A stretch of DNA of 22,073 nt, taken from a virus. The translations under genes and the position numbers were made by a program. This document shows, in pieces, positions 3,011 through 22,073 of this stretch. The stretch's first letter is position 1. Each line of letters opens with the position of its first letter. The notes beneath the pieces are model-generated. The model was not told the origin of the DNA. It worked only from the letters and a program-made list of their open reading frames with translations, and did no database searches. The DNA is taken from IMG/VR virus record IMGVR_UViG_3300025112_000215, positions 1 through 22,073 of that record. One strand, given 5' to 3'.

Positions 3011-4171
3011 ATGGCTAATACAACAACAAGCCTAAATCAGACTAAGTTTGTACGAACAGTACAAGCGTTCCGAAACAAAATGTTGGTATCTATGAGATTC
3101 GCAAGAACTCAATTACCAGTCGACGTTTCAAACGGAGATCAAATTGATTTCCCAACTATAACTGACCTTCGAGCCCAAAATTACAGTTCCCAGGTCGACG
3201 CAACAATCGATGATTTTGTGTCTGCTAGCGACACTCTTGACTTGGACAACAGAGAAGTTGTGACTTTCCACATCGACCCTGCACAAGTCAAACAAGCGAC
3301 TTCAGAGTACGAATCTGCTCTAGCTTTCCAAGCTGCATATCAGCTTGCTAACAGAGTTGACCAGACTGTTATCAACGCAGGTATCACTGGGGCTTCAAAC
3401 TCAATTTCAGGTTTCACGACAATCAACTCAACAAACATTCTAAACATGTTTACTGAGGCGACTTCTAACCTATTCAGACAAAACGCTGGACCAGGACGAT
3501 CATTCGCACTTATTGATCCTGAAAGATTTGCACTCCTAGAACAAAACGTAGTTGCTAACGGATTCAACCTTGGCGACACAACTCTAAAAAATGGTTACAC
3601 AGGAGACTATTCTGGATACAATGTACTTGTATCTAACAATCTTCCTTCAAGCCAAACTCTAGGTATGGCTACTAACCCAACAGCGGACGATACGTTCACT
3701 TTATACGGAGTAACATTTACATTCAAAGCAGCACCCGCAGCAGCAGGCGAAATTGATATTGGAGGATCAGCAGCAGCGACAGGAGCAAACATTGTTCTAG
3801 CTATCAATGGTACAGGTACTGGTGACGGTACTGACTACTTTGAACTATCAACTGCTAATAGAAGAAAACTTCAGAACGCTCAATGTTCAGCGGCAGCATG
3901 GGGATCAGACGCTTCAGTTGTTACTGGATTTGGTAAAATTGATGGTGAAGAAACTTTCACTGACGGTACAGATGCTTGGGGTACTGAAACTTCAAGCCTT
4001 CTATTCGGAAGAGTTGGAGCAGTATCTATGGCTATGCAAATGGCGCCAAAGCTATTTGTTCGACCAGAATCTAAACAGGTTGGTGATAACCACATCTTGC
4101 ACCAGCTTTATGGTGACAAAGTCTTCACAAGAGACGCAGACAGACTTATCAAAGTACCTTATAACGTATAA
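3011..4171 (+). CDS. Major capsid protein with an inserted beta-rich domain
   Basis: This 386-residue protein follows the scaffold gene, as expected for the HK97-fold coat protein. The N-terminal part (to about residue 215) resembles P22-like and related coat proteins: an N-terminal helix with RNKMLVSMRFARTQLP, a long spine helix around 92-125 (QVKQATSEYESALAFQAAYQ), then the FALIDPERFALLEQ segment near 165-178. The C-terminal part (about 328-386) runs from LLFGRVGAVSMAMQMAPK to a typical ending with LYGDKVFTRDADRLIKV. Between SNNLP (208-212) and that part lies an Ala/Gly/Thr-rich segment of roughly 110 residues with TFTLYGVTFTFKA, which looks like a surface-exposed insertion domain. The leader contains inverted repeats and no Shine-Dalgarno. 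It is followed after 19 nt by a fibre-like gene. Confidence 0.9.
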   Translation: MANTTTSLNQTKFVRTVQAFRNKMLVSMRFARTQLPVDVSNGDQIDFPTITDLRAQNYSSQVDATIDDFVSASDTLDLDNREVVTFHIDPAQVKQATSEYESALAFQAAYQLANRVDQTVINAGITGASNSISGFTTINSTNILNMFTEATSNLFRQNAGPGRSFALIDPERFALLEQNVVANGFNLGDTTLKNGYTGDYSGYNVLVSNNLPSSQTLGMATNPTADDTFTLYGVTFTFKAAPAAAGEIDIGGSAAATGANIVLAINGTGTGDGTDYFELSTANRRKLQNAQCSAAAWGSDASVVTGFGKIDGEETFTDGTDAWGTETSSLLFGRVGAVSMAMQMAPKLFVRPESKQVGDNHILHQLYGDKVFTRDADRLIKVPYNV

Positions 4172-7772: not shown

Positions 7773-9157
7773 GTAACTTCAGATCAAATTCATGGAGAAC
7801 GCCATCACAGATACGATATGGCGACGAAGGGATTGGAATCAACATTGCTCCAAGAAATGACTGGGAGCTAGATGTGTGGTCTGACAGTGGTACTAATACT
7901 ACATTTAGTGTTGAGTTTGATGGTGGTGCAGAATTATTATTTCAGGCACAAGCTGCGTTTGCTACGTTTGGAACACAATCTAACCATGACTTTGCAATTC
8001 TAACTAATGCTACTCAAAGAATAAAAATAGAATCCAGTGGTCTGGTAAAGATCGGTGATGTGAATGAGGTAGCTAGTGCTTTATTACATGTTGAATCTTT
8101 AACTGATGATACTGCTTTAATGATTCAGGGTCATTCTACTCAAACTGAAAAGCTAACTGAATGGCGACAAGATGATGATACTATTGTAGCTAGTATTGAT
8201 AATGATGGAGATTTTGTAGTGGGAAAGATTGACGCTAACGCTACATTAACTGACGTTGCTGCTGCAACGAACGCATTTGATTTCCAAACTACAGTAACAA
8301 CTACAGCAAACAACGCTCAATCACATAGGGGACTTGTTTCGTCGATTGTTTATTATGATAACGACGACCTGACACATGCTGGCGACTCATTAACAGGTGG
8401 TATTTTTGAGGCTGTATTCATGGGGACTGGTACGGTAGCTGGTGTAGCGGGGCTATATTTCAACAGTACAAGTATTGGTTCAGGAACAATCACTGAAGGA
8501 CTTGGAGCCGAGTTTAATCATATAATAGGAGTATTCGGTACTGCGGGTAACATGACGACAGGAACAGGTGCGAGATTCAAGCATGATAATCTAGGAATTG
8601 GATCATTTGGTACATATAGGGGAGCTCATTTCGTCAATTCAGCTACGGCTACGGCTACAGCGTTATACGCATTTGATTTCGAGACTGACTATATTAGTAA
8701 CAGTAGAGCTGTTTCAGTATCAGATACCCTAGTACAGAGATACATGCCGCTTTCAACTGAAGACACTGGTATCACTTTCGATTCAGCCGACGTAGTTCTT
8801 GCGAACACGACAAGCGGAGACGTAGTAATAAATCCATTTAATGAGTTGCTTATTAACGGTACAACTGTATTAACTGGAGGTATGAGGTTGACTACAACAA
8901 GAGTTACAAACACTTATGTGGTTCTAGGGTCGGATTATGCAGTGTTTTGCGATACTGACGGAGGAGCGTTTACGGCAACTCTACCAGCAGGTGTAGACGG
9001 ACAGACTTATAAAATAATTAACTGTGGTACTTCGGCTAATAATTTAACTCTAGCACCTAATGGGGCCGAGCTTTTGATAGGGGTGAACGCTAATCTCACA
9101 CTAGCAGACGGTGAGTCCCTAATATTAACCTATGAAACCTCAGAAGGTTGGTATTGA
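7769..9157 (+). CDS. Tail-fibre-like protein
   Basis: This 462-residue protein overlaps the preceding gene by ATGA. The N-terminal part contains fibre repeats: AELLFQAQAAFATFGTQSN, then HDFAILTNATQRIKIESSG and LVKIGDVNEVASALLHVESL, all typical of phage fibre shafts. The middle (about residues 150-330) is Gly/Thr/Ala-rich beta sequence. The C-terminus (about 375-462) holds TATLPAGVDGQTYKIINCG and LTLADGESLILTYETSEGWY, then stops, so it ends within a pattern that continues for some 10 more residues in the proteins at 4191 and 9912. Codon choice changes inside the gene: from about 8050 to 8215 Asp is always GAT, whereas later GAC dominates, which suggests mosaic assembly. Likely role: receptor-binding or decoration fibre. 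Confidence 0.75.
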   Translation: MSNFRSNSWRTPSQIRYGDEGIGINIAPRNDWELDVWSDSGTNTTFSVEFDGGAELLFQAQAAFATFGTQSNHDFAILTNATQRIKIESSGLVKIGDVNEVASALLHVESLTDDTALMIQGHSTQTEKLTEWRQDDDTIVASIDNDGDFVVGKIDANATLTDVAAATNAFDFQTTVTTTANNAQSHRGLVSSIVYYDNDDLTHAGDSLTGGIFEAVFMGTGTVAGVAGLYFNSTSIGSGTITEGLGAEFNHIIGVFGTAGNMTTGTGARFKHDNLGIGSFGTYRGAHFVNSATATATALYAFDFETDYISNSRAVSVSDTLVQRYMPLSTEDTGITFDSADVVLANTTSGDVVINPFNELLINGTTVLTGGMRLTTTRVTNTYVVLGSDYAVFCDTDGGAFTATLPAGVDGQTYKIINCGTSANNLTLAPNGAELLIGVNANLTLADGESLILTYETSEGWY

Positions 9158-9206
9158 TATATCAGCTGAAGACGTGGCAAGAATAATTTAATTTTTATTT
9201 ATCATT

Positions 9207-9404
9207 ATGGCGAACGGCTCAATAGACTACAATTTAGGACACCTAAAGGCTGACATGGATATTGTGAAAGAAGATATTAACGAACTTAAAGGCTCTGTAG
9301 CAGGATTATCAATATGGAGGGTAAGGACGATTGCATTCTTTTCAGGTGTAATTGCAGCAGTCACAACGACAGCTAACGGGATATTATTTTTATTCTTCCA
9401 GTAA
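9207..9404 (+). CDS. Small membrane protein, holin-like (XhlA type)
   Basis: This 65-residue protein has a charged helical N-terminal half with heptad-like spacing (LGHLKADMDIVKEDINELKG) and one hydrophobic segment at about residues 41-64 (TIAFFSGVIAAVTTTANGIL and onward to FLFFQ) at the very C-terminus. This coiled-coil plus C-terminal membrane-anchor plan matches XhlA-type haemolysin/holin accessory proteins and similar small phage lysis proteins. If so, it acts in the inner membrane at lysis. It lies inside the fibre cassette with gaps of 49 nt before and 100 nt after; no endolysin gene is adjacent. An alternative is a small virion membrane-contact protein. The start has the usual A/T-rich leader without Shine-Dalgarno. 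Confidence 0.55.
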   Translation: MANGSIDYNLGHLKADMDIVKEDINELKGSVAGLSIWRVRTIAFFSGVIAAVTTTANGILFLFFQ

Positions 9405-9417
9405 TTTATATCTAACA

Positions 9418-9504
9418 ACCACGTTCAATGTAATTTAATTTATTAAAGCCACGAAACGTGGTATAATATAAAAGAATGGGGGGATATAATTTAATTCTCT
9501 CAAA
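9418..9504 (+). promoter_or_regulatory. Promoter and G-rich leader element, copy 2, with palindromic operator-like site
   Basis: An extended -10 box TGGTATAAT lies at 9459-9467. It is followed by GGGGGG at 9478-9483 and ATATAATTTA at 9484-9493, with the G run starting 27 nt before the ATG at 9505, exactly as at the portal gene. No good -35 is visible. Instead the region before the -10 holds the palindrome CCACG-AAA-CGTGG (9449-9461), which overlaps the TG of the extended -10. A further half-site ACCACGTT (9418-9425) is an 8-bp inverted match to AACGTGGT (9455-9462). TAATTTAATT occurs at 9431-9440 and 9487-9496, and once more at 9184-9193. I infer a regulated internal promoter for the genes from 9505 on. 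Confidence 0.65.
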
Positions 9505-9909
9505 ATGGCTGAAACAAGAAGTGCAACCAAGCTGCAATCAATACTTAGTGCAGCGGGAGCAACGGGGGTGGGTACAGGAGTTAATGTAGCGCCTTATCAA
9601 CATATTTTACTTTCGGTAAGAAGTGACAATTCGGCTAACCTAACGGCTAAGTGCCAAGGGTCAATCGCTAATGAAGAACCTACTTGGGGTTCTGCGGCGG
9701 CAGTGGATAATGACTGGGATTACATAGGTATTCAGTTATTAGACGACGGCACTATCGTAGCTGGTGATACAGGGGTAGTTTACGCAGGATCTGACGCTGT
9801 TCATTATTACATGGTCAACACTGACGCAATGAACTGGATCAACTTTAACGTGACAGCTCGTGCAGCAGGTGATGTAACAATTCAAGTTCGAGCATTTAAC
9901 AACTCTTAA
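9505..9909 (+). CDS. Small beta-rich structural protein, paralogue B
   Basis: This 134-residue protein is a paralogue of the protein at 5606-6010 (same length, gapless alignment with about 57 identities by hand). Conserved parts include RSATKLQSIL-like residues at the N-terminus, DWDYI near 71-75, VAGDTGVVYAGSDAV near 86-100 and MNWINFNV near 109-116. The two genes are well diverged at DNA level, so the duplication is old or one copy was acquired. It is the first gene after promoter element copy 2 and is followed after 2 nt by a fibre-like gene. I infer a virion protein working with its downstream neighbour; no enzymatic motif is present. Confidence 0.75.
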   Translation: MAETRSATKLQSILSAAGATGVGTGVNVAPYQHILLSVRSDNSANLTAKCQGSIANEEPTWGSAAAVDNDWDYIGIQLLDDGTIVAGDTGVVYAGSDAVHYYMVNTDAMNWINFNVTARAAGDVTIQVRAFNNS

Positions 9910-9911
9910 AC

Positions 9912-10715
9912 ATGGGATTTCATAGAAGTACACTAAGCCAAGGGGGAACGGCTGAGGGGCCAATTACGATACAAACAGATAATGCAAATGCTCTTTTAAT
10001 TGAGCAGGTAGATGGTGATGATGTGGCGGTTTTTGATACGTCTGGTTTTGGGGCTGCAACTTTCACTAATCATAATGATGGCGACACAGGTTTTGGTCTA
10101 ACGCTATTCCAAAACAGCGCTAGTCCAGCGTCAGAGGATGTGGCGGGATTTATTTCTTTCGACGGGAACGATGATGGGACAGCGCAATCTACATACGCAA
10201 CTATTTACGGTGAAATAGACGATACAACCGCAGGCTCAGAAATAGGCCTTCTTAGTTTCACTGTAGCAGACGGAGCTGGTTCTGAAGGTGGGATATTGTT
10301 GTCAGCAGACGGCGGCACAGGTGTATCTTCAATCGAAGCCTTTGACGACGATATTGAGTTACTCTTTTTGACAAATGCAGACGTAGGTGCTCCGCATATT
10401 ATCTTCCAGCCAGGCGGCACAGTTGCATTTAATATTGCGTCTGAGACTATTTCCGACACAACAGCATGTGATCCTGAAGTGGGGACTACGATATTCACAG
10501 GTAACGGTACGGCTAACACTCTAGGTGACGGCTCACAGAGCGGCCAAATGAAGATTTTATTGCATATCACAGGAGCTGGAGCTACAGACGTAAATATTAC
10601 AAATTTCCTTCACGACGCAGCGGGGCTGCAACTGGCTCTTAAAGGAGCAGTGACTTTGCTATGGGGAGGGACTTCATGGTTTATTCTCGGTGGGGACGGT
10701 TATACATTAGGATAA
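9912..10715 (+). CDS. Fibre- or decoration-like protein sharing a module with 4191-5294
   Basis: This 267-residue protein opens with a short N-terminal segment (GFHRSTLSQGG), then fibre-like strands (ITIQTDNANALLIEQV). Residues 60-134, beginning GFGLTLFQNSASPASEDV, align with residues 151-226 of the protein at 4191-5294. The C-terminal 80 residues have TLGDGSQSGQMKILLHITG and end in TSWFILGGDGYTLG, again like that protein. It is shorter and lacks the repeated N-terminal strands of its relative. Asp codons are mostly GAT in the first 60 codons and shift toward GAC later, as in the gene at 7769. It is a likely surface fibre or decoration protein, paired with the small protein just upstream. Confidence 0.75.
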   Translation: MGFHRSTLSQGGTAEGPITIQTDNANALLIEQVDGDDVAVFDTSGFGAATFTNHNDGDTGFGLTLFQNSASPASEDVAGFISFDGNDDGTAQSTYATIYGEIDDTTAGSEIGLLSFTVADGAGSEGGILLSADGGTGVSSIEAFDDDIELLFLTNADVGAPHIIFQPGGTVAFNIASETISDTTACDPEVGTTIFTGNGTANTLGDGSQSGQMKILLHITGAGATDVNITNFLHDAAGLQLALKGAVTLLWGGTSWFILGGDGYTLG

Positions 10716-10729
10716 TAAAAAAATATTAT
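10712..10729 (+). promoter_or_regulatory. A/T hairpin overlapping the adaptor start codon
   Basis: ATAATA (10712-10717) is complementary to TATTAT (10724-10729) across a loop of six A. The 3' arm includes the first two bases of the ATG at 10728. The stem is only A-T pairs and could arise by chance in A/T-rich leaders, so I rate it low. Confidence 0.25.
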
Positions 10730-11378
10730 GGCAATTCAGTTACAAACAGCGAAAGATAGTTTTGCTCGCTACAAGCACGATATTTCAGACGTCGACAACA
10801 CTCAGTTTATCGAATGGTGCGATTTCTTAAATAAGTTCGCCTACCGATATTTACAAGGGATTGATCCTGATAGATTTATCGAGGAGTCAAGTTATACGGT
10901 TTCAAGTTCACCGAGTTCACAGGCTTTGCCAGCAGATTTCGATAGTATGCAGCCTTTAGGGTGTGGGATCTATGAGGTTGACGATTCAGGCGACGATACA
11001 AGCAAAGAGATAACGCAAACAGGTCACGGACGCAGGGATCAAGGGTTTTACTTTGAGCAAGGCAATGTGGTATTTACAGGATTTGACGGGACTTCAAAGA
11101 CGCTAAAAATGCGGTATATCAAGAATATCACCGCTTTAACTGCTATTACTGATTACCTAACTGTTGAAGGGACTTCGGGAGGATTAGAAATTATCCCTGA
11201 CGAATATCTCCAGTATGTGATTTATGCTTTGGATACACTTTATACTCAATGGGACGAAGAAGTCGGCGCTGAAAGTTTTTCTGACGCTAGATTTACCCGT
11301 GCCTTAGACGAATTAGCAAGAAATATAAAACGAACAGGGGGCGTGTACTCAATACCTTCTTTTAACCATTACTACTAA
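10728..11378 (+). CDS. Head-tail adaptor (tail tubular A / gp11-like)
   Basis: This 216-residue protein has the features of podovirus adaptors that form the ring under the portal. The N-terminal helices contain FIEWCDFLNKFAYRYL (about 28-43). A beta-rich middle follows with SSQALPADFDSMQPLGCGIY (about 63-82) and a strand TLKMRYIKNI. A C-terminal helix region has IPDEYLQYVIYALDTLYTQW (about 156-175), where the P(D/E)...YLQYVIYAL pattern is typical of this family. It starts after a 12-nt gap and its TAA overlaps the next ATG by one base, coupling it to the nozzle gene, the usual partner. It should assemble on the portal and connect it to the tail nozzle. Confidence 0.75.
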   Translation: MAIQLQTAKDSFARYKHDISDVDNTQFIEWCDFLNKFAYRYLQGIDPDRFIEESSYTVSSSPSSQALPADFDSMQPLGCGIYEVDDSGDDTSKEITQTGHGRRDQGFYFEQGNVVFTGFDGTSKTLKMRYIKNITALTAITDYLTVEGTSGGLEIIPDEYLQYVIYALDTLYTQWDEEVGAESFSDARFTRALDELARNIKRTGGVYSIPSFNHYY

Positions 11379-13162
11379 TGCCATACACGGCTATCCAGTC
11401 AAAGGGAGGGGCAACACGAACGCAGGCTCGTAGTTTAACACCGACTAGCGGTTTAGATTTAAGGGATTTGCCGCAGCTTCTTCAGCCTGAGTTGGCTTTT
11501 AAAATGGTTAACTACATAACTGACGCTCAGGGACGGTTAAAGAAAAGAAAAGGGATTGAGGAGCTATTTACGGTAGGCGGGACTGATCCTATTACATTTA
11601 TTGAAAGATACGATTCAGATTTATTTATTTTTGGCTACGGTACGACGGTTGCTGCTTATTCAGTTTCAGCGGACGCAGTGACTAGTATTAAAGCAGATTT
11701 TACGGATTCCGACGCTTTAATAGGTGTTAGATACGGCGATTACTTCTTCGCAAGTAATGGGATTGAGAAGATATTTAGAATATCAAGAACTTTAGATTAT
11801 GACGCTCAGACAGGTAACTTCACAGCGGGAGACATTGTAACTGGCGGCACAAGCGGAGCCACAGCGATAATCCTTGAGGATAACGATTCAGGAGTAACTG
11901 GAACGCTAACTTTAGGGAATATCTCAGGGACTTTTTCGGATGGCGAGGTTATTACTGATCCGAGCGGTGGATCAGCAGACGTTGACGGGACGGTAGACTG
12001 GACAGCGTCTGAGGTTACAGATTCAAGCCCATGCACGGTAATGAAGGTGATCAACGCTAGATTATTCACAAACTCAGATACGCAGGGAGAGGTTAAGTAT
12101 TGCGCTATTGACGACGGGACTAACCCACCTTTTACTGACTGGACAACTTCAGCGACTGCGGACGACGCAGGAGGTGTAAACGATAGGTTTATTGGAAACA
12201 TTAACGCAATCGAAGCTCTGGGAGAGAATATTGTGGTTTTTGGAGATAAGGGTAAATTTGCATTTTTCATTAATACTATTGATTCGGCTGGCACGCTGAC
12301 TAAAGTAGAGGTATTTCAAATGAGTCGTAGAGATTTCGGGGGAGCTTCGGGAGCGATTGCAACAGACATAGGACTTGTTTATATGAACGAGGCTGGCCTG
12401 TGGGCGCTTTCTTCTATCGGACAGCCCAATATACCATTCTCAGACCAAGAAGGCCTTATAACTAAACTATTAGGCCCAGACTACTTTGCAGATGCTACGT
12501 TTACGAATACGGATATAGTTTACGACGAAAGACAAAATTTAGTGTTACTTACATACGGTGATGATTCTACGACTAATAATGCCGTAATCGCTTATAATGT
12601 TGAAACGAAAGCTATGTCAGAATTCTCAGGTTGGACATTCAACCGATGGCTCAACGACGACGGGACAATTTATGCAGGCAGCGCAGTAGACGGAGCGGTG
12701 TATACTTGTTTTGTCGGATACGACGACGACGGGCTTTCGATTGGTACTGAATTTGAACAAGAAATGCAGTTAGGATCTTTAGAAGAATTAAAGGATATAG
12801 GCAAATTTTACGTTCAGGGATTCTTAACTTCTGGAGCGCCTATCACTGTCAGTTTTAACGTTTATGACCGTACAGGGCGATATGCGAGCAACAGGATGCA
12901 GTATACATGGAGCGCACAGGTAGCCTTGGGTAGTGGCAAAGGATATGACGCAATGGCCTACGACGCAGGAGCTTATGACGGTGATTTAGACTCAAGTGAA
13001 CTTATTGAAAGCTTTGACGGAGCAATGACAGGTATTAAAAGAGTGTTACGACTAAGAGTGAATTTTTCAGCTTCGGACACAAGTCAACATGAGATTAACT
13101 GGTTTAGCGTGGCGGCTAAACGAGGTCCACTAGCAAGAAGAAGAAAGCTAACTAAAGTATAA
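11378..13162 (+). CDS. Tail nozzle / hub protein (tail tubular B / gp12-like)
   Basis: This 594-residue beta-rich protein immediately follows the adaptor, as gp12 follows gp11 in T7-like phages, and has a similar overall plan. The N-terminus has LDLRDLPQLLQPELAFKMVN and GRLKKRKGIEELF (about 26-65), typical of nozzle proteins that list conserved residues for the portal-side platform. Propeller-like repeats follow (TFIERYDSDLFIFGYG, LIGVRYGDYFFASNG, FIGNINAIEALGENIVVFGD, GLVYMNEAGLWALSSIG). Residues 144-206 look like an inserted domain with FTAGDIVTGGTSGATA and GTFSDGEVI. The basic C-terminus ends RRRKLTKV. The nozzle closes the tail channel and takes part in DNA release. A P22-like tail needle or stabilisation protein is a less likely alternative. 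Confidence 0.75.
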   Translation: MPYTAIQSKGGATRTQARSLTPTSGLDLRDLPQLLQPELAFKMVNYITDAQGRLKKRKGIEELFTVGGTDPITFIERYDSDLFIFGYGTTVAAYSVSADAVTSIKADFTDSDALIGVRYGDYFFASNGIEKIFRISRTLDYDAQTGNFTAGDIVTGGTSGATAIILEDNDSGVTGTLTLGNISGTFSDGEVITDPSGGSADVDGTVDWTASEVTDSSPCTVMKVINARLFTNSDTQGEVKYCAIDDGTNPPFTDWTTSATADDAGGVNDRFIGNINAIEALGENIVVFGDKGKFAFFINTIDSAGTLTKVEVFQMSRRDFGGASGAIATDIGLVYMNEAGLWALSSIGQPNIPFSDQEGLITKLLGPDYFADATFTNTDIVYDERQNLVLLTYGDDSTTNNAVIAYNVETKAMSEFSGWTFNRWLNDDGTIYAGSAVDGAVYTCFVGYDDDGLSIGTEFEQEMQLGSLEELKDIGKFYVQGFLTSGAPITVSFNVYDRTGRYASNRMQYTWSAQVALGSGKGYDAMAYDAGAYDGDLDSSELIESFDGAMTGIKRVLRLRVNFSASDTSQHEINWFSVAAKRGPLARRRKLTKV

Positions 13163-13177
13163 TCTAAACAATAAACT

Positions 13178-13726
13178 ATGGCAGAAATGAAAAAATGCAA
13201 GAAATGTGAAACGGATAAAGCCGTGTCTGAATTCTACTGTAAAGACAAGAAAACTGGACGGATAGATTCTTCTTGCAAGAAATGCCATTATTTTAGTAAA
13301 GACAGAAGCAAGAAATATCCTAAGCCAGCGTTATATATGGTATGGGCTGGCATGAAGGCTCGTTGCGATAATCCGAACAACCCTCGATATAATCGATACG
13401 GTGGTCGCGGCATCACATATTGTAGCGCATGGAAAGATTACAAAGTTTTCGAACAAGATATGCTCAATGACTACAAGAAAGGACTGCAGCTAGACCGTGT
13501 TGATAACGATGGCAATTATTGCCCAGCGAACTGCAAATGGAGCACGCCGCGAGAACAAAGCAACAACAGAAGCGATAATAAATACTTCCGATTTAACGGT
13601 AAAAAACAGACCTTGCCTGCATGGGCGCGTGAACTAGGAGTTAACAGGAGTACCCTAGCGCAGCGATACTATGGGCTTAAATGGCCTATAGAGAAGGTAT
13701 TGACATATAATATAACACACACATAA
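13178..13726 (+). CDS. Free-standing HNH homing endonuclease
   Basis: This 182-residue protein has three parts. At the N-terminus Cys7, Cys10, Cys33 and Cys36 form two CxxC pairs of a zinc-binding finger. Residues 52-130 carry the motif set of a common phage homing endonuclease group: YMVWAGMKARC, RYNRYGGRGITYC (70-82), LDRVDNDGNY (105-114), NCKWSTPREQSNNR (118-131). The C-terminus (about 145-176) has TLPAWARELGVNRSTLAQRY and WPIEKVLTY, the DNA-binding repeat often found at the end of these enzymes. It would nick or cut DNA of related phages lacking the gene, so the gene spreads. It lies between two tail genes with 15 nt before and 1 nt after, with no intron borders visible. Confidence 0.85.
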   Translation: MAEMKKCKKCETDKAVSEFYCKDKKTGRIDSSCKKCHYFSKDRSKKYPKPALYMVWAGMKARCDNPNNPRYNRYGGRGITYCSAWKDYKVFEQDMLNDYKKGLQLDRVDNDGNYCPANCKWSTPREQSNNRSDNKYFRFNGKKQTLPAWARELGVNRSTLAQRYYGLKWPIEKVLTYNITHT

Positions 13727-13727
13727 T

Positions 13728-15809
13728 ATGAGTGATGCTACGGCTGTACCACAATTACAACTATTTCTATGGGGGACGCCAAGCGCGCCCAACCCGACAC
13801 TAACTAGTCCGCTAGAAGATTCGGCAACAGCGCAAACGGCTACATTTAGCTCTGCGCCCTTAGACAGTGCGGGGGCTAAGTTAACAGGAGATTTCTTATT
13901 CGCTGTCCGAAACAAGGCAGGGTTCACAGAAGTTTGCTATATCCCTGCTGCGGGTATGAGTGCAGACGGATTAACTGCTACGGGTGTAATCCGAGGTATT
14001 AACACTGGTGGAGGATCAATCGACTACACTGCTACAGGAGGGGATGATTACAGAGCTGAACATGAGCAAGGGTCAGCGGTATTCTGCCCAGCTAGTTCAA
14101 CTCATAATAATATAATTATGGATTGGATTCAGGGTACAGGTAGCATGGCTTCTGGTGGGACTACATTGACTTTAGGTGACGAAACTGACACTGACGTAAC
14201 GATTGAAGCAGCTTTGACTTCAACTGTTGGATTCTTGAGAAAGGACGCTGGTACAGGTAAAGCTCAGTATTCTAACGACGGTGCTGCATGGGTGAATATA
14301 GATTCGGTTTCGGCTAGTAACTTAATTGAAGTAAGCGCAGCAGATACAACGCCAGGGTATTTAGATACAAAGATTACGGTTGATGCAGACACCATGGCTA
14401 AGACTATAACTAGCCCTGGAGGTGATGAGAGACTAGAGTTGAGCGCAAGTGGAGGGTTAGCGGATATGATTGACGACGTAACGGCTACAGCCACAGAGGT
14501 AGATCAAGCGTTATCAGGGATTTCAGCTAATGTAACACAGGCGAATCTTGATACTTTAACGGCAGGAGCTGCAAGTAACGCAGACGCATTGCATACACAT
14601 TCAGATACGGCGATTTCTTTTACCGCTGGAGAGTCTATTACTGAGGATGACGCAGTTTGTTTACTGCCAATCGAGGTAGAATATTTTGCTCAATTGACAG
14701 AAGGTGATTTAGTTTTAGGGCAAACAAATGCTTTAAGGGCATATGCAATTAAAATTACTCCTTCTGAAACAACCTCAACATTAACTACAATGCAGTTCAG
14801 AGCAAAAGAATCGGTGAATGGCGCAACCACGTTGGGGGATTTAGATATTTCTATCCAAGGGGACAATGCTGGCGAGCCAGACGGTACACCGATTGCAAAC
14901 GGAAGCGCCAATGCGATCACTCAGGCTACGCAAAGAACGTGGAATACTACATACGGAACTAGAACAGCTACATGGGCTGCCTCGCCTACTCTAACAGCAG
15001 GGACGACTTATTGGATTGTGTTCGAGGTAAACGGGACAGACAACACTAATTACTTAAGACTTGGGGACAACAGTACGTATGACGAAAACTATTTTACTTT
15101 CACTAGATTGATCTACGATTTAGACGCAGCTACATGGGGGAATTCGTCAACAACTTTAACCCCATTCTTTTGGTTTAATTCGCAAGTTAAATTACTTGGT
15201 ATGGTAGTAGTCCCAACGGATGCTAACTTCGGTGGAAGAACATGGGGATTCGTAGGATTTGCAGAATCGACAGTATCGGCAGGTGCGAGCGTGAATATAT
15301 CAACTAAACTTTACGACGGACTAACGGGGCTAGAGCCAGGGAAAGATTATTATATAAGTGCTACAGCAGGTGAAGTCACTGATAGTCCACCTACCCCTAC
15401 AGGTTCTAACGGAACGATGAGATATAAAATTGGGCGAGCATATAATACTACGAATTTAGCGATAAGATTAGGGGAGAAGAAGACGTGGGCAACACAAAAT
15501 GTTAGCGCAACAACAACTTATCCAATCATTACTTGGTTTAGGCCAAACGAAGTGTACTGCAATAATGGTACGGCAGGAGCAGGGCAATATTGGGGTGGCC
15601 AAGGTACTGGATATTACAATATTGGAATTGACGAATACTTCAGTGCGAACTCGGTTACAGGTGAGCCATTCTTGTATGACTGTGACCGAGGAGATGGAGC
15701 GGGCACACTGAATACTGGTACAGGTACAGCTACTACAGATGTAGGATTCACCGTAAGTAATACGAATAGCTCTGGGGGTAACGAGATAATCCTAACAATG
15801 ATCGGATAA
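13728..15809 (+). CDS. Large fibre-like virion protein
   Basis: This 693-residue protein combines several fibre modules. Residues about 225-290 have ATATEVDQALSGISANVTQA, NLDTLTAG and ADALHTHSDTA, a common fibre arrangement (VTA.NL.TL...LHTH). Residues about 350-435 form a beta-sandwich-like region with TLTTMQFRAKESVNGATTLG and TYWIVFEVNG. Residues about 520-585 contain LYDGLTGLEPGKDYYISATA and GRAYNTTNLAIRLG, a C-terminal module found in many phage fibres. The last 100 residues are rich in Tyr, Gly, Asn and Thr and could be the receptor-contacting tip. It starts 1 nt after the homing endonuclease gene and stands between the nozzle and the ejection proteins. No cleavage or chaperone domain is recognised. 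Confidence 0.75.
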   Translation: MSDATAVPQLQLFLWGTPSAPNPTLTSPLEDSATAQTATFSSAPLDSAGAKLTGDFLFAVRNKAGFTEVCYIPAAGMSADGLTATGVIRGINTGGGSIDYTATGGDDYRAEHEQGSAVFCPASSTHNNIIMDWIQGTGSMASGGTTLTLGDETDTDVTIEAALTSTVGFLRKDAGTGKAQYSNDGAAWVNIDSVSASNLIEVSAADTTPGYLDTKITVDADTMAKTITSPGGDERLELSASGGLADMIDDVTATATEVDQALSGISANVTQANLDTLTAGAASNADALHTHSDTAISFTAGESITEDDAVCLLPIEVEYFAQLTEGDLVLGQTNALRAYAIKITPSETTSTLTTMQFRAKESVNGATTLGDLDISIQGDNAGEPDGTPIANGSANAITQATQRTWNTTYGTRTATWAASPTLTAGTTYWIVFEVNGTDNTNYLRLGDNSTYDENYFTFTRLIYDLDAATWGNSSTTLTPFFWFNSQVKLLGMVVVPTDANFGGRTWGFVGFAESTVSAGASVNISTKLYDGLTGLEPGKDYYISATAGEVTDSPPTPTGSNGTMRYKIGRAYNTTNLAIRLGEKKTWATQNVSATTTYPIITWFRPNEVYCNNGTAGAGQYWGGQGTGYYNIGIDEYFSANSVTGEPFLYDCDRGDGAGTLNTGTGTATTDVGFTVSNTNSSGGNEIILTMIG

Positions 15810-15833: not shown

Positions 15834-18464
15834 ATGCCAACACAAGCAGAAAGAGATTTGAAAGCAAAACGAGCCAGGAATAGGGCAAAGCTCGCAAAGG
15901 CTAGAGCTAAAGTTGCAACTAGCGCTATAGGTTCTGGTAAAGCAGTCAAGGGAGCCAAAGCGCACGTTAAAAAGCAAATGGGCGTAATCGACCAAAGTCG
16001 AAAGGAGTTAGCTACTTTGGATAAGCTCGGTGCTGCTAGTGGCCCAAAGCCAACGACCACTACACCTAAAACGACTACAACTAAGCCTGTAACTACTACG
16101 ACGAAGCCTACTGTCACCGCGCCTACTCCAGCGCCAGTAGATACATTTAAAGCTCCAGGGGGGCAGGATTTTAGTTATGCGGACGACTTTGTATTCACGA
16201 CTGATGATACTGGAGCAGTATTCGTTAATGATATTGAAGGGTTTAAGCGGGCGTCTAGGAATTCTCCTTTTGATTTCTTTATATCTAAGAGCGGCAAGCT
16301 AACAGACAAGCAAGGTAACCCAATAGACCAGTTCGGAAAGCTTATCTCTTCGGGATCAGATTTATTCGGTAGTGGATCTTCAAGTGGAGAACATGGGAGT
16401 CTTGACGAGTTTTTAGACGGGATAGGTAGTGATAGGGACGCGACAGACTCAGAGCTAGTGAATCGTGGGCTGTTTAGCGAATTTGATATACGGGCAAGGG
16501 AGCTAGCAAGGGAGCAAGGAATAGACATCGATCGACAACCTGAAACTTACGCTCAATTAGTACGACAGGCAGAGGAAGAATTCCGACGTAAAAAGAAACA
16601 TTTATCTGAAGATATCGCGCGGCAGGCTGAAGCGGATAGTATTGCGTTGCACCAGGTTAAAGTATCGGCAGAGGGGAGCGCAGGTGCAGCAAGCGCAGCT
16701 CTAGCCCAAGACAGAGAAGGGCCGATGAGTCAAAGTGCGCCATTTGCTTTAGACGTATTCGAGAAAACATTACAACAAAACGTGCGTAAGTCAGTGCTAA
16801 GTTTCGAGCAAAGTCAGGCGAATAGATTGCGGGCAATGGAGGATCTGGAGAGAGCAAAGAAAAGTAAGGATAAAGATTTGATCGATCTTGCGAGTGCAGC
16901 TTTAGGACGGGCAGAAATGGCTATTGAAAAGTCACAGACTGACCTACTCAACGCTCAAACTGCGGCGAATAATCAGGCGATCAAACTACAGGAAAGTACT
17001 ATTGCGACCTTGGATACTCTTGGAGCGGGTACTATTGCTGGTATGCAGGCGGAGGATATTGCTGCATCGTTTGCAGAAGTCGGGTTAAATCCGATGATGG
17101 GCAGAGCGTTTCACGCTAATTCGGTTCGTATCGCTGCTGCGGAGGCCATAGGAGACGAGCAGGCTGTGGAGAAAGCAAAATTAGACAATCTGAAAATACA
17201 GGCAGAATTAAATAATACGTTGCAGGGCGCCACTACAGCTCAAAAGGATTGGAATTTCTTAAATATGCTGAAGAACGGGGGAATGGCAGGAGTAACTAAT
17301 CAGGACATTCTTGATTTCAAGCGACTTTCAAATATCGCGCCAAACGCTTTGTCACCACTTGACGACGCTAGAAGACGCGAGATTGAAGCTAAGCTGAGAG
17401 AGGGTAAGGACGCGTTTGGGTATGGAGACGCTAGTGTAGCAAGCGAATATGCTAGTCTTAAGCCAACCCAAAGTTTCAATACTCCAATCGAATACAGCGT
17501 AGGCTCAACTACTCCTCCAGGCACGCATGGAGGAATAGATATCGTATTGCCAGGGGGGCAAAACGCTGATGTTAGAGCAGTCGCTGGTGGGGTGGCTAGT
17601 ATATTTTCCATAGATAATGGCCAGGGTACTGGCTGGGGTAACTCAATTGAGGTCGTAGATAACGACGGAAGAATACATAGGTACTCACACCTGAGTAGTG
17701 TTGATTTATTCGACTTATTTGGAGAAGACGGCGTGCTAGACAAAACAAAAACTGTTGGGATAGTTTCGGGAGAGGTTCTCGGTAAACAGGGAAATACAGG
17801 GTTTTCATTCAGTACGACTGGAGGTGACGGAACGCATTTAGACTACAGAATTATAGAAAATGGACAGACGATTGATCCTGAGCCATATCTAAAGAATTTA
17901 CAAGCTACTTCGGGAGAATTATCACCATTAGCCCAGTCTGTTGTTGACGGAGTACTTACATTAAAGGATTTAACTCCTACGCAGAGAGCTGAACTTGCGC
18001 CTGAGTTAAATTCGATAGGGTTTAAATCGGCCATAACGGGAGAAATGAAGCATGAGGTTGAGTCAATTCAGGACGGGCTACAGGCCGTATTGTCAGCACT
18101 TGACAAGGTTCCGAGTGGCCATAAAGGATCGATAGAGGGAAGATTCTCAACACTGATTGCCTCAAAGGAACGTGTCCCTGAGATAGCCGCTTTCGATACA
18201 CAGGCGAAGATAGTTGGCATGCAGATTACTCGTTTATTTGAGAAGGGGCGAATATCGGATGCAGATCGCGAGTTTTATTTAAGCCTAATGCCAAACTTAA
18301 ACCAGTCGGACGAGGCAGCGAAGATATCAGCACAAAATGTTATCGACAGGCTAAATTCAAAAATAGATAAGATCCAAGAAGTTGGTCTGCTTGGCGATTC
18401 TGACCCGCTTGAATTAGGGATATCCTCTGATACCGAGGACCCACTAGACATTAACAAAAAATAA
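15834..18464 (+). CDS. Ejection-type virion protein with M23 peptidase-like domain
   Basis: This 876-residue protein begins with a Lys/Arg/Ala-rich helix (1-60), followed by a Thr-Pro-Lys linker (about 72-104). Long charged helices follow at about 215-470 (EEEFRRKKKHLSEDIARQAE and others). Residues about 548-685 form an M23 (LytM-type) zinc endopeptidase-like domain: HGGID gives ligands His565 and Asp569, YSHL gives His619, and THLDYR gives His668. The usual second His of the HxH motif is Asp670. The C-terminal part (about 690-876) has VGMQITRLFEKGRISDADRE, a helical module I associate with phage virion proteins. I infer a particle-borne enzyme that opens peptidoglycan during DNA entry; the changed ligand leaves activity uncertain. 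It precedes the giant protein by 1 nt. Confidence 0.75.
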   Translation: MPTQAERDLKAKRARNRAKLAKARAKVATSAIGSGKAVKGAKAHVKKQMGVIDQSRKELATLDKLGAASGPKPTTTTPKTTTTKPVTTTTKPTVTAPTPAPVDTFKAPGGQDFSYADDFVFTTDDTGAVFVNDIEGFKRASRNSPFDFFISKSGKLTDKQGNPIDQFGKLISSGSDLFGSGSSSGEHGSLDEFLDGIGSDRDATDSELVNRGLFSEFDIRARELAREQGIDIDRQPETYAQLVRQAEEEFRRKKKHLSEDIARQAEADSIALHQVKVSAEGSAGAASAALAQDREGPMSQSAPFALDVFEKTLQQNVRKSVLSFEQSQANRLRAMEDLERAKKSKDKDLIDLASAALGRAEMAIEKSQTDLLNAQTAANNQAIKLQESTIATLDTLGAGTIAGMQAEDIAASFAEVGLNPMMGRAFHANSVRIAAAEAIGDEQAVEKAKLDNLKIQAELNNTLQGATTAQKDWNFLNMLKNGGMAGVTNQDILDFKRLSNIAPNALSPLDDARRREIEAKLREGKDAFGYGDASVASEYASLKPTQSFNTPIEYSVGSTTPPGTHGGIDIVLPGGQNADVRAVAGGVASIFSIDNGQGTGWGNSIEVVDNDGRIHRYSHLSSVDLFDLFGEDGVLDKTKTVGIVSGEVLGKQGNTGFSFSTTGGDGTHLDYRIIENGQTIDPEPYLKNLQATSGELSPLAQSVVDGVLTLKDLTPTQRAELAPELNSIGFKSAITGEMKHEVESIQDGLQAVLSALDKVPSGHKGSIEGRFSTLIASKERVPEIAAFDTQAKIVGMQITRLFEKGRISDADREFYLSLMPNLNQSDEAAKISAQNVIDRLNSKIDKIQEVGLLGDSDPLELGISSDTEDPLDINKK

Positions 18465-18465
18465 T

Positions 18466-21400
18466 ATGGCAACAGTACAAGAATTCGCGGCTAAGATTAA
18501 AGAAAAATACCCACAGTATCAGGGTATGGACGATATAGAATTAACAGAAAAGATAGTCGCTAAATACCCCCAGTATAAAAGTGCTGTAATCATGCCAGCA
18601 CAGAGTTCGATCTCTGCGGCTGTATCTTTAGGTAAGGGCGAAGGGTTATCCCCAGGACGCATAACCGAGAAAGAAAAGGCATTAATTGGTCGCAGTACTA
18701 AGGATATTATGGCCGAGAGCCAGCAGTTCGATAAGCCAGGTAATATATTTAGTCGGGCAGTTGGTCGTGGGGTAGAAAATATTAAAGAGGAATCTGCGGC
18801 TATTACGGAGCGTGAACAGAATATTGAACAAAGACGAGCGGCTGGAGAGTTCGGGGCGCTCGGTGGTTTCATTAGACAATTAGGGATTGAAACGCAAAAA
18901 ATGTTCTTGCCTACCGCAGCCTTTGTTGGAGGAGCTGGTGAGCCAGTTATAGAGCCTGTAGTTGAAACACTAACACCCCCAGTTAAAAAGGTGGCGGAGG
19001 ATGCGGCAGAGACATTACGGGATATCAACACCGTTCAAGACTTCTTAACGAAGCCCTTGCAAAACTTAATAACCGAGCAGGTAGGGGAGGAGAACATACA
19101 AAACTTACAAGATAGAATGTTTGAGCCAATAGAGGTAGCTTTAGAGGACCCAGGGTTTAGAGCTGATGCTGAAAACTTTTTCCAGTCTATTAGGGCGGCT
19201 TTCGTTCCTGCTGACGCAGCACTTGTAGGCGCTGGCTTTGAAGCGCTTAGGAGGACTGGCTTCAGTAAAGCCATAGCTGCTACCCTAAAAGGGACGCCAG
19301 AGGCGGCTAAAACTGAAACAATTAGGATTGTCCGAGAAGGAGTTGAGGGGTTAAGCGATCAGGCTAAAAGGACACATGCGGCCAGAACTGACAGAGTTGT
19401 TGACAACGTAGATAAGGCTGTTGCGCAGATACTACAAGGTGAGCCAGACGATATTGCAAGAGGTACAAAAGCATTATCAACTATTGACGTTGACGGTATA
19501 GACACTTATAAGGATTTGAAAGTGGGGACTAGGAACAAGGTTGGCTTAGTGGCTGCTGAAATGGACGATTACTTATCACAGTTTCCTGATACGAAATTAT
19601 TGGGTGATTTTGAGAGGACAGCTACAGTAGGTGGACGCACAGCGAGTGCTAATCATACAAAAAATGCTTTAGACAATTTAGAGGAGTTATACGACGACAT
19701 TGACGCTATTGAGGATTTAACTAGAATTCAGGCATTAAGAGATCAAGCTGAAACCACTGGCCTTACGGTGCTAGAAGCTAATCGGTTATCTCGAGAGTAC
19801 GGGATTAACTTTAAGGAAAAGGCTTTCACTAAGAAGGGTGATCCTAAAACAAGCGTAACGGCAGCTAGGTTTGAAAATACACGAAAAGGGGTCAAAAATG
19901 ACGTTAGGGATAGGCTGCCAGACGATACTGCTAAGATCTTCGATAAACAAATGTCGGACCTGATTAACACCGAGCAACTATTAAAGAAGATGGAGATAAA
20001 GGTTCAGAACCTTGTCCAAAAGACTAAGAAGCGAGGCGTGGGGGCTAAACTAGGTCGGGGTACTGCGATTTTACTAGAGAAGTTGTCGTTCGGTTCGTTG
20101 CCTGCATTCCTGCAAAGACTAGGAGTGCAAAGTAATTTAGGCCGTAAAACAATGAACTCATTAGATATGCAGAACGCATTGAAAAAGAACCTCAAGACAC
20201 TTCAGAAATTAGAAAAGACAACTGACGAAAGCAAGATCGGTAAGTTTCTTGATGAACTTTTAGAAGAGTTTGGTGATACCCCCTCCGATTTTAAAAAGGC
20301 GGGAGCTGCCAAAAGTGCCACTCTCGAAGTAAAAGGTTTTAGTAATGTAGAGGAATTGCAGGGTATTTTTAGAAGTACGAAAGGCATGTCGGCTGACGAC
20401 ATAATGAAAACCCACCCTGACATTCAACTTAAAAGGGACGTACCAGCTAAAGATATTTACGGCAATAAGGTAGAAATCCCAGAAGGGGAGGTTTTAACCC
20501 CGTATGAGTTGAAGGGTAACAAGATCCTGCTGCAAGACGGTGAAACGTACGTTGTATCTAAGAACCAGTTTCAGAACATTAAGGGTAATTCCATTTCAAG
20601 TGAGGCTAAAGAGTTTGCTCCTGAGTTGAAAGGGTTGGAGGAAACGGTAAAAGGTACGGCAGATCGTAAAATAATGAACGCAGAGGAAGCGAAAAAGTTT
20701 CTATCAGAAGCGAACGGCAGGGGTGAACAAGTTATAATTTACGGTATTAACGACACAGGTAATGCAATTAAAATATTTAAAAAAGAAGAATTTGATTTCT
20801 TCGATAAATTTACTTCAGATCACCTTGTGCCACCTACCAAATACTCAGACTACCAACTACCAGAAGGGAAAAACTACAAAGAGATATTGATTAAAGCACC
20901 AACAGAAGGGGGCGTATTAACCAAGAATAGCATCAAGGAGGTTGTCCAAAATCCAGATGGAGGCTGGGATGTAAAAATAGAAGATGGCAGGAAGTTCGTT
21001 TATGATGATGCGGCTACGTCAACAGAGGCAAGAAACGAGTTTGATAGGGACTTGAGAACTGGGAAAATAGACGTAGGGGCTACGGATAAGAGCGTGTTCA
21101 GATCCTCCCACTGGGAAGAACCAAACGTAATCTCTCACCTTAGAATGAACGAAAGAACCTACAAAGGCAAGAAGGTTGCATTTATGGAAGAAGTACAGAG
21201 TGATTGGGCTAGGGAGGGGAGGAATAAGGGGTTTCAGAAAGATGTTAGTGCGGAAAAGGCAGAAGCAGAATTAATCCTTAAAAAGTATGGTGAGGAAATA
21301 GAAGGTGCTTCTGGGGAGTATTATAGGCGGTTAGACGAAGCGATAGATAGGATGGATGTGGATTACAAAAACAAGGATTATGAAAGAATAGCAGAGTTAA

Positions 21401-22073
21401 GCAAGACAATATATGACGAAACCAAGGACTTCGGGGGCGTCCCAAGCCACCCCCTAGTTAAAGGAAACAAGTGGCAAGAGCCTAGTGTAAAACGAGCATT
21501 AAAAGAGGCCGTAGACTCTAACGCAGATTACTTTGCTTGGATTAACGGAGAGCAGACAAGTGCAAGGTATAATTTGACGACGCAGCTAGATAACGTGAAA
21601 TGGAAGGCAGCAGATCGTGGCGGTAAAGACGTAACGCTGAGGCTGGCAGAGGGCGGCAACCCTAAGCAATTCTTCTTAGACGAGTCAGGGGTCATTAGAA
21701 GCAGCGACATACCTAGCTTCAGAGACAAGCCACTCAATGAAGCACTTGGCAAAGGTCTAGCAGATTCAATCATGTCTAAACCTAAAGGAACGCTATCAGG
21801 CGAGGGCTTGAAATTTGGCGGTGAGTGGGCTTCAAACCTGTACGATAAGCAAGTGGCTAACATTGTTAAAAAGCTAACTGGCGGCAAGATTGAGAAACTT
21901 GATATGGGGCTGCCGATAGAAAAGACAAAATCTTACAATATAGCGAACGATAGAATGGTAACTAAAACAGTTGTTACCCCTAAGAACGCTAAAGTTGGAA
22001 TGGAAATCGCAGGGGCTTCGAGAGATCGGTACATTATAACCGAGGTGCTAAAAGACGGCAAAGTTAAGGCTGT
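18466..22073 (+). CDS. Giant phage polyvalent-type protein, probably injected (partial, runs off the window)
   Basis: The frame is open from the ATG at 18466 to the end of the window: 1,202 complete codons without a stop. The N-terminus (6-40) has two copies of a K.KYPQY-type motif around MDDIELTEKIVAKYPQY, seen at the start of several phage injected proteins. Residues about 80-800 are mostly charged helices. From about 877 there are motifs typical of phage large polyvalent proteins: HWEEPNV (882-888), FMEEVQSDW (906-914), KWQEPSVKRALKEAV from 1002, WINGEQTSARY (1025-1035) and SGEGLKFGGEWASNLYDKQV near 1110-1130. Such proteins are thought to enter the host with phage DNA and act early. More domains probably follow beyond the window. 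The specific enzymatic activity is not known to me. Confidence 0.8.
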   Translation, partial: MATVQEFAAKIKEKYPQYQGMDDIELTEKIVAKYPQYKSAVIMPAQSSISAAVSLGKGEGLSPGRITEKEKALIGRSTKDIMAESQQFDKPGNIFSRAVGRGVENIKEESAAITEREQNIEQRRAAGEFGALGGFIRQLGIETQKMFLPTAAFVGGAGEPVIEPVVETLTPPVKKVAEDAAETLRDINTVQDFLTKPLQNLITEQVGEENIQNLQDRMFEPIEVALEDPGFRADAENFFQSIRAAFVPADAALVGAGFEALRRTGFSKAIAATLKGTPEAAKTETIRIVREGVEGLSDQAKRTHAARTDRVVDNVDKAVAQILQGEPDDIARGTKALSTIDVDGIDTYKDLKVGTRNKVGLVAAEMDDYLSQFPDTKLLGDFERTATVGGRTASANHTKNALDNLEELYDDIDAIEDLTRIQALRDQAETTGLTVLEANRLSREYGINFKEKAFTKKGDPKTSVTAARFENTRKGVKNDVRDRLPDDTAKIFDKQMSDLINTEQLLKKMEIKVQNLVQKTKKRGVGAKLGRGTAILLEKLSFGSLPAFLQRLGVQSNLGRKTMNSLDMQNALKKNLKTLQKLEKTTDESKIGKFLDELLEEFGDTPSDFKKAGAAKSATLEVKGFSNVEELQGIFRSTKGMSADDIMKTHPDIQLKRDVPAKDIYGNKVEIPEGEVLTPYELKGNKILLQDGETYVVSKNQFQNIKGNSISSEAKEFAPELKGLEETVKGTADRKIMNAEEAKKFLSEANGRGEQVIIYGINDTGNAIKIFKKEEFDFFDKFTSDHLVPPTKYSDYQLPEGKNYKEILIKAPTEGGVLTKNSIKEVVQNPDGGWDVKIEDGRKFVYDDAATSTEARNEFDRDLRTGKIDVGATDKSVFRSSHWEEPNVISHLRMNERTYKGKKVAFMEEVQSDWAREGRNKGFQKDVSAEKAEAELILKKYGEEIEGASGEYYRRLDEAIDRMDVDYKNKDYERIAELSKTIYDETKDFGGVPSHPLVKGNKWQEPSVKRALKEAVDSNADYFAWINGEQTSARYNLTTQLDNVKWKAADRGGKDVTLRLAEGGNPKQFFLDESGVIRSSDIPSFRDKPLNEALGKGLADSIMSKPKGTLSGEGLKFGGEWASNLYDKQVANIVKKLTGGKIEKLDMGLPIEKTKSYNIANDRMVTKTVVTPKNAKVGMEIAGASRDRYIITEVLKDGKVKA

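Follow-up and report, generated by a model that had tools for sequence, protein, structure and literature searches.

A widespread conserved block with a probable GNAT-like fold in giant polyvalent-type phage proteins

What is the task of the giant protein whose gene runs off the end of virus record IMGVR_UViG_3300025112_000215? We analysed this stretch of 22,073 bases at its full length and call it the window. The window is the complete virus record, so the giant gene is cut by the end of the contig. A preliminary description, made from the letters alone, had pointed to a stop-free frame of more than 1,200 residues following a peptidase gene, and to three short motifs within it. The frame is there: it opens at 18466 behind a gene for an M23 peptidase and continues to the window end for 1202 amino acids with zero stops, against a longest plus-strand frame of only 154 codons in 20 mononucleotide shuffles of the window. 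All three motifs were located in the protein, within a conserved block near its cut end.

18466..22071, plus strand: giant protein gene, 1202 codons, ATG start, 3' end cut by the contig end
20833..21903, plus strand: conserved block, residues 790-1146, a predicted GNAT-fold-like domain
21190..21207, plus strand: motif EVQSDW, residues 909-914
21538..21570, plus strand: motif WINGEQTSARY, residues 1025-1035, its R kept in 157/162 and its Y in 148/162 block members
21796..21828, plus strand: motif SGEGLKFGGEW, residues 1111-1121, directly before the helix with the near-invariant Y (160/162)

The answer that we favor, with about an even chance of being right, is that the giant protein is a virion-associated polyvalent protein of a phage, and that its GNAT-like block is likely a transferase or ligand-binding module in the newly infected cell. 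The protein would belong to the polyvalent kind of tailed phages and would be carried in the particle. It would be released into the cell together with the neighboring cell-wall peptidase protein; gene position and relatives suggest both packaging and injection. Inside the newly infected cell the block may act as a transferase or as a ligand-binding module, and would modify a host (or phage) macromolecule. The chemical residues, if GNAT chemistry applies, would be an invariant Glu on the central strand and a near-invariant Tyr in the last helix.

Conservation of the block is far above chance, with tblastn E values down to 1e-97 in other virus contigs. Residue conservation was counted in 162 non-redundant block members, using the numbering of the compact member L046. 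R89, E105 and Q107 (the latter two being the E and Q of EVQSDW) occur in all 162, H78 in 161, Y316 in 160 and R217 in 157, and the S and D of EVQSDW (S108 and D109) are each kept in 160 of 161. E105 and Y316 are kept together in 160/162 members. In the AlphaFold model of L046, E105 lies on the strand 98-107 and Y316 in the helix 310-329, which we take to match the positions of the base and the acid in GNAT enzymes.

The block is also widespread. The full-length giant protein found no relatives as a query; only its C-terminal third did, matching 19 loci in viral_contigs, seven of them with 45-53% identity. With the last 358 residues as a tblastn query, phage Dfl-JY45 (E 1e-19) and other phages were matched. 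Plasmids were matched as well: those of Pseudomonas aeruginosa (E 1e-14), in a protein of 5000 residues that carries an LPD23 annotation, and those of Variovorax, among which one has the block gene beside type IV secretion system (T4SS) genes. The block thus occurs in large polyvalent-type proteins of phages, as the preliminary description had said, and also in plasmids. An alignment scan of IMG/VR (viral_contigs) found the block encoded by at least 531 of 599 candidate stretches. Among prokaryotic genomes (genome_contigs), 138 of 190 candidate stretches encode it, and all 80 that were kept were confirmed by the block profile. By contrast, a compact member used as query at E 0.001 matched only seven phage records out of 50,697, and seven plasmid records out of 72,556. 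The block is common in uncultured phages and rare in cultured ones, where its carriers include Pelagibacter phage HTVC028P, Pseudoalteromonas phage PH1 (protein ANY29564.1) and Nostoc phage Nsp-JY18. L111, a contig of 3988 bases in a metagenome-assembled genome (MAG) of Candidatus Nomurabacteria, encodes a protein closely related to the window module (46% identity, E 4e-96); this contig was binned to a Patescibacteria MAG, and a host relationship or a binning error are both possible.

The fold of the block is probably GNAT-like, as judged from predicted structures. AlphaFold modeled the window block from 75 sequences with a predicted local distance difference test (pLDDT) of 81.5 and a predicted template-modeling score (pTM) of 0.68, and the compact member L046 from 71 sequences with a pLDDT of 92.8 and a pTM of 0.81. 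The predicted order is strands, the strand ending in EEVQSDW, a W...KR helix and an AW strand, followed by an inserted beta-hairpin and, after the YD helix, two strands that close the fold. VIA-align was run over the candidates supplied by Foldseek, and its best matches were 1z4e for the window-block model (Z 8.6, 106 residues, 3.5 A) and the C-terminal part of Mycobacterium tuberculosis ICL2 for the L046 model (Z 8.8, 121 residues, 3.3 A), the latter followed by TacT3, NatD and others. Judged by title or known fold, we take all 50 matches listed for each model to be GNAT-fold proteins, chimallin among them. When the block profile was compared with 30 GNATs by hhalign, the score was 27.1, and 60 column shuffles reached at most 16.0; a smaller alignment gave 25.1 vs at most 19.9 in 30 shuffles. 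The best of these alignments places the W-helix and AW strand of the block onto GNAT motif A and the next strand. In BFVD, structure matches of the block were giant phage proteins, some of them named ART-PolyVal-like or LPD.

Several results weigh against the reading that we favor. Foldseek against the PDB gave no match below E 0.001 with either block model. The top match of the window-block model was the GNAT 2eui (E 0.033), and that of the L046 model was a tail fiber (0.045), below which acetyltransferases, Hsp70s, enolases and other proteins were mixed. VIA Z values of 8-9 are close to those of models without clear relatives, for which Z 7-8 is common, and the hhalign probability is only 11% in absolute terms. 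The canonical acetyl-CoA (coenzyme A) pyrophosphate loop of GNATs is [QR]xxGx[GA] before helix 3. It was found at the expected place in 2/162 block members vs 25/30 GNAT controls, and a string of this type stood elsewhere between strand and helix in 40/162 members. As the canonical loop is missing, the block is not filed as a member of the GNAT family but only as GNAT-fold-like. Finally, the preliminary description had noted that such proteins often carry several effector domains; the block is the one domain recognised in the cut gene, in which Pfam and NCBIfam gave no match above a curated cut-off and PHROGs no convincing one.

The weak Foldseek statistics, the middling VIA Z, the low absolute profile probability and the missing loop would all suit a polyvalent-protein domain whose fold is a separate one. 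Its likeness to GNATs would then reflect a common arrangement of sheet and helices, and its function would be another one, for example linked to nicotinamide adenine dinucleotide (NAD) or to nucleotides, as its ART neighbors suggest. We regard this as distinctly unlikely, because two separately predicted members returned the same fold family throughout the 50 matches listed, and because the profile alignment falls in the register demanded by GNAT topology and scored above all 60 shuffles.

A second alternative grants the fold and denies the chemistry: the block would be a GNAT-like scaffold that has no catalytic activity and serves, like chimallin, for structure or for protein binding, here within the virion or the ejection apparatus. 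The missing acetyl-CoA loop and the presence of chimallin among the VIA matches fit this idea, as does the gene order of phage HTVC028P. There, gp34 (954 residues; profile E 3.9e-40) carries the block as its C-terminal part, with a 'putative internal protein A' encoded two genes before and a 'putative internal virion protein' directly after. This position is presumably the one where T7-like phages keep their ejected internal core proteins. However, the near-invariant polar residues (R89, E105, Q107, S108, D109, H78 and Y316) look more like those of an active or binding site than like those of a scaffold. The block also moves among very different proteins and stands beside T4SS genes on a plasmid, where there is no virion. 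On balance a dead scaffold is a doubtful though serious explanation.

For the virion-associated transferase or ligand-binding module that we favor, the HTVC028P gene order is the strongest sign so far that the protein is packaged and ejected, but it is not proof. A bolder form of the same idea, which we consider rather unlikely, is that the block is the first member of a family of GNAT-fold transferases which are injected and lack the usual CoA loop. The family would be among the commonest effector domains of uncultured phages, and would have escaped notice through its near absence from cultured phage genomes and from domain libraries. Other loop-less GNAT-fold enzymes use aminoacyl-tRNA as donor. 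Such a family may likewise use another donor, for example aminoacyl-tRNA, and have host proteins or RNA as its targets when infection begins.

The surroundings of the gene bear on how the protein could reach the cell. Two genes upstream in the window frame its setting.

15834..18464, plus strand: preceding gene, 876 residues, with Peptidase_M23 at residues 564-682 (Pfam, E 1.1e-9)
3011..4171, plus strand: major head protein of the same phage (phrog_267, E 3.2e-17)

The giant gene starts one base past the stop of the M23-peptidase gene, and it lies downstream of the head and M23 genes, all on the same strand. In relatives, the gene upstream of the block gene encodes a transglycosylase (L008) or an L-alanyl-D-glutamate peptidase/transglycosylase protein (L009), and these two genes parallel the M23 gene of the window; the upstream genes of L010 and L013 gave no match. 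Terminase, portal or head genes adjoin the block gene, or lie close to it, in L046, L058 and L100, which are of the compact class, and in L032. Of 50 records searched, 16 had a phrog_156 portal, and in all 16 the portal and the block are on one strand; strand was compared rather than distance, since many contigs may be permuted. Relatives of the 876-residue M23 gene were not found by sequence search, and phmmer of nine window genes against the open reading frames (ORFs) of twelve loci gave no matches, so synteny with the relatives is read only from gene order and PHROG labels.

Some further features of these genomes were seen in passing. An HNH endonuclease gene, perhaps for a homing endonuclease, sits among the late genes of the window at 13178-13726 (phrog_3377, E 4.4e-48). 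HTVC028P gp37 (L221:9967-10428) and Nsp-JY18 L005:2622-3077 are solo genes annotated acetyltransferase, located between tail tubular and internal/lysozyme genes and a few genes from the block protein. At the other end of the window, a 595-residue protein (126-1910) found five contigs of 4.9 to 10 kb when used as a query. One of them, L106 (9129 bases, from another metagenome), encodes a protein 100% identical to it that likewise lies at base 126 from the contig end; this common start could mark either the end of a genome or a break in the assembly.

What lies beyond the contig end can be estimated from relatives. The close ones share with the window a module larger than the block.

20347..22071, plus strand: module common to close relatives, residues about 628-1202

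In these relatives the shared module reaches about 70 residues past the window end. It is possible, though short of an even chance, that the gene stops soon after this point, with the shared module only and no further effector; such an ending would be compatible with the function that we favor for the block. L009 and L030 do stop early, with about 15 residues beyond the shared module, and L029 and L032 have about 165-190 residues there. A readable 3' end was available for 85 viral block ORFs; in 30 of them 120 residues or fewer follow the block, and in 17 it is 121-400. Against a short tail, 38 of the 85 continue for more than 400 residues, and among the close relatives the tails after the shared module reach about 840 (L010), about 1080 (L013) and about 1160 residues (L008), with that of L011 exceeding 1,300 and itself cut. 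LPD38 is present in the tail of L011 (E 4.7e-17) and near the cut-off in that of L013, just below it in one search and just above it in another. The preliminary description had named the region after the window as the most likely place for new anti-host activities. This is a possibility rather than a result, as the tails of close relatives vary from about 15 residues to over 1,300. An exact match to a 40-base pattern from the last 100 bases of the giant gene was not found in viral_contigs. A Ref-like RecA-dependent endonuclease at residues 1033-1147 of L010 (PHROG E 0.0011) was unconfirmed and is not used here, as Pfam RecA_dep_nuc matched 0 of 8 records, with the positive-control genomes also silent.

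Carriers of the block are proteins of 660 to 5410 residues whose N- and C-terminal partners vary. LPD38 and ART-PolyVal were searched in 50 of the 95 viral block records: each was found in 10, and either or both in 17. The open frames that hold these domains have the length of the block ORF, or a length that agrees with it where the frame is cut in the loci used, with a single LPD38 exception. One relative (L019) adds GGDEF, SLT and methyltransferase domains in the frame of the block, and another (L016) adds 2H phosphoesterase, GGDEF and RelA/SpoT. The varying partners, and the polyvalent domains found in relatives, mark the block as a mobile domain of the polyvalent-protein world as Iyer et al. 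2017 (PMC5512222) define it.

The N-terminal part of the giant protein is less informative.

18466..18600, plus strand: N-terminal 45 residues with a KEKYPQY...KYPQY repeat, whose sole match is an ORF of Maribacter phage Panino

The preliminary description had called this N-terminus injected-protein-like. Residues 1-41 matched one phage record at E 6e-3, which lends weak support to the claim. In relatives compared, window residues 1-570 were unmatched, and N-termini differ from one relative to the next. The Panino (L222) match is a short ORF, 8980-9252, which overlaps in another frame the start of a coding sequence at 9171-14660 (1829 residues, named tRNA methyltransferase); a frameshift where a further giant protein begins may be the cause.

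Domain libraries have little to say about the block. The window protein had zero matches above the curated cut-off in Pfam or NCBIfam and one weak PHROGs match, which lies outside the block (E 0.0094). Across 75 block members, no relevant Pfam or NCBIfam model was found, no acetyltransferase family matched at E 0.01 in either library, and no Pfam LPD model matched. A search of PDB sequences gave one match at E 0.79 for the whole protein and none for the block alignment. The preliminary description had also considered that the block might belong to an ordinary structural family, and no such family matched. Matches set aside were ketol-acid reductoisomerase (E 0.0038, 18 bits vs the cut-off of 29.1) and TRCF, both below cut-off in the window protein, and sporadic ones in one or two of the 75 members, namely DUF2188 (Pfam, one member), cobalt-precorrin methyltransferase, IscA and a salt-regulated protein. 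A literature search found no description of the block domain, subscription papers, preprints and supplements being mostly outside its reach. The 'acetyltransferase' of JC1, described in PMC9144972, is a separate gene for 146 residues and distinct from the block.

One library label did recur, as phrog_7348, named 'endolysin', matches 63/75 block members. Taken at its word, this label would make the giant protein an endolysin or lysis protein, to which we give almost no credence. Two members that were examined match positions 1618-2104 of the 2564 in phrog_7348, and the transglycosylase gene of L008 matches 2100-2151; Pfam found no lysis domain in the block in the 75 members. The block region of phrog_7348 adjoins the transglycosylase region and does not overlay it, so the label most likely stems from a fusion. 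Carried over to the block, the endolysin label may spread wrong annotations.

How does the block compare with known systems? Polyvalent proteins, according to Iyer et al. 2017 (PMC5512222), carry several (2-15) distinct domains per polypeptide, are encoded in a late virion or T4SS gene setting, and are packaged in the virion and injected. Measured against that description, the block proteins are alike in size, in their virion-gene or T4SS setting, in domain shuffling and in their ART-PolyVal and LPD38 partners; the window protein differs in that only one domain is recognised in its cut gene. The same text lists 40 LPDs, and the block matches none of those that have a Pfam model, to which our comparison is confined. 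It further describes two RimI-like GNAT families in polyvalent proteins, and PMC7824862 describes phage Rac. To these the block is alike in its proposed fold, its type of carrier and its frequent ART company. It differs from the RimI-like GNATs, as described in those sources, in having no Pfam acetyltransferase match (75 members) and no canonical loop; this separation is one by description. With GNAT structures (TacT, NatD, spermidine acetyltransferase and the C-terminal part of ICL2), the block models align over about 105-125 residues at 3.2-3.9 A. By our assignment of elements, the block would differ from them in three respects: a long insertion of variable sequence follows its central strand, a long beta-hairpin is inserted ahead of its last helix, and it has no [QR]xxGx[GA] loop. 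Chimallin, according to PMC9365700, is a GNAT-fold protein without acetyltransferase active-site residues that forms the shell around the replicating genome of jumbo phages. Like the block, it is a phage protein with a GNAT(-like) fold that lacks the usual active-site features; it is a nuclear shell protein, whereas the block occurs in giant late-gene proteins and keeps its near-invariant polar residues.

The polyvalent kind of protein was already known. What is new is the block itself: this domain is widespread, is missing from the catalogues and probably has a GNAT-like fold. Naming the block and its likely fold would annotate many giant phage proteins now called 'hypothetical', and the cultured carriers HTVC028P, PH1 and Nsp-JY18 put packaging and activity within experimental reach. 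The block may be an overlooked tool that phages apply to their hosts.

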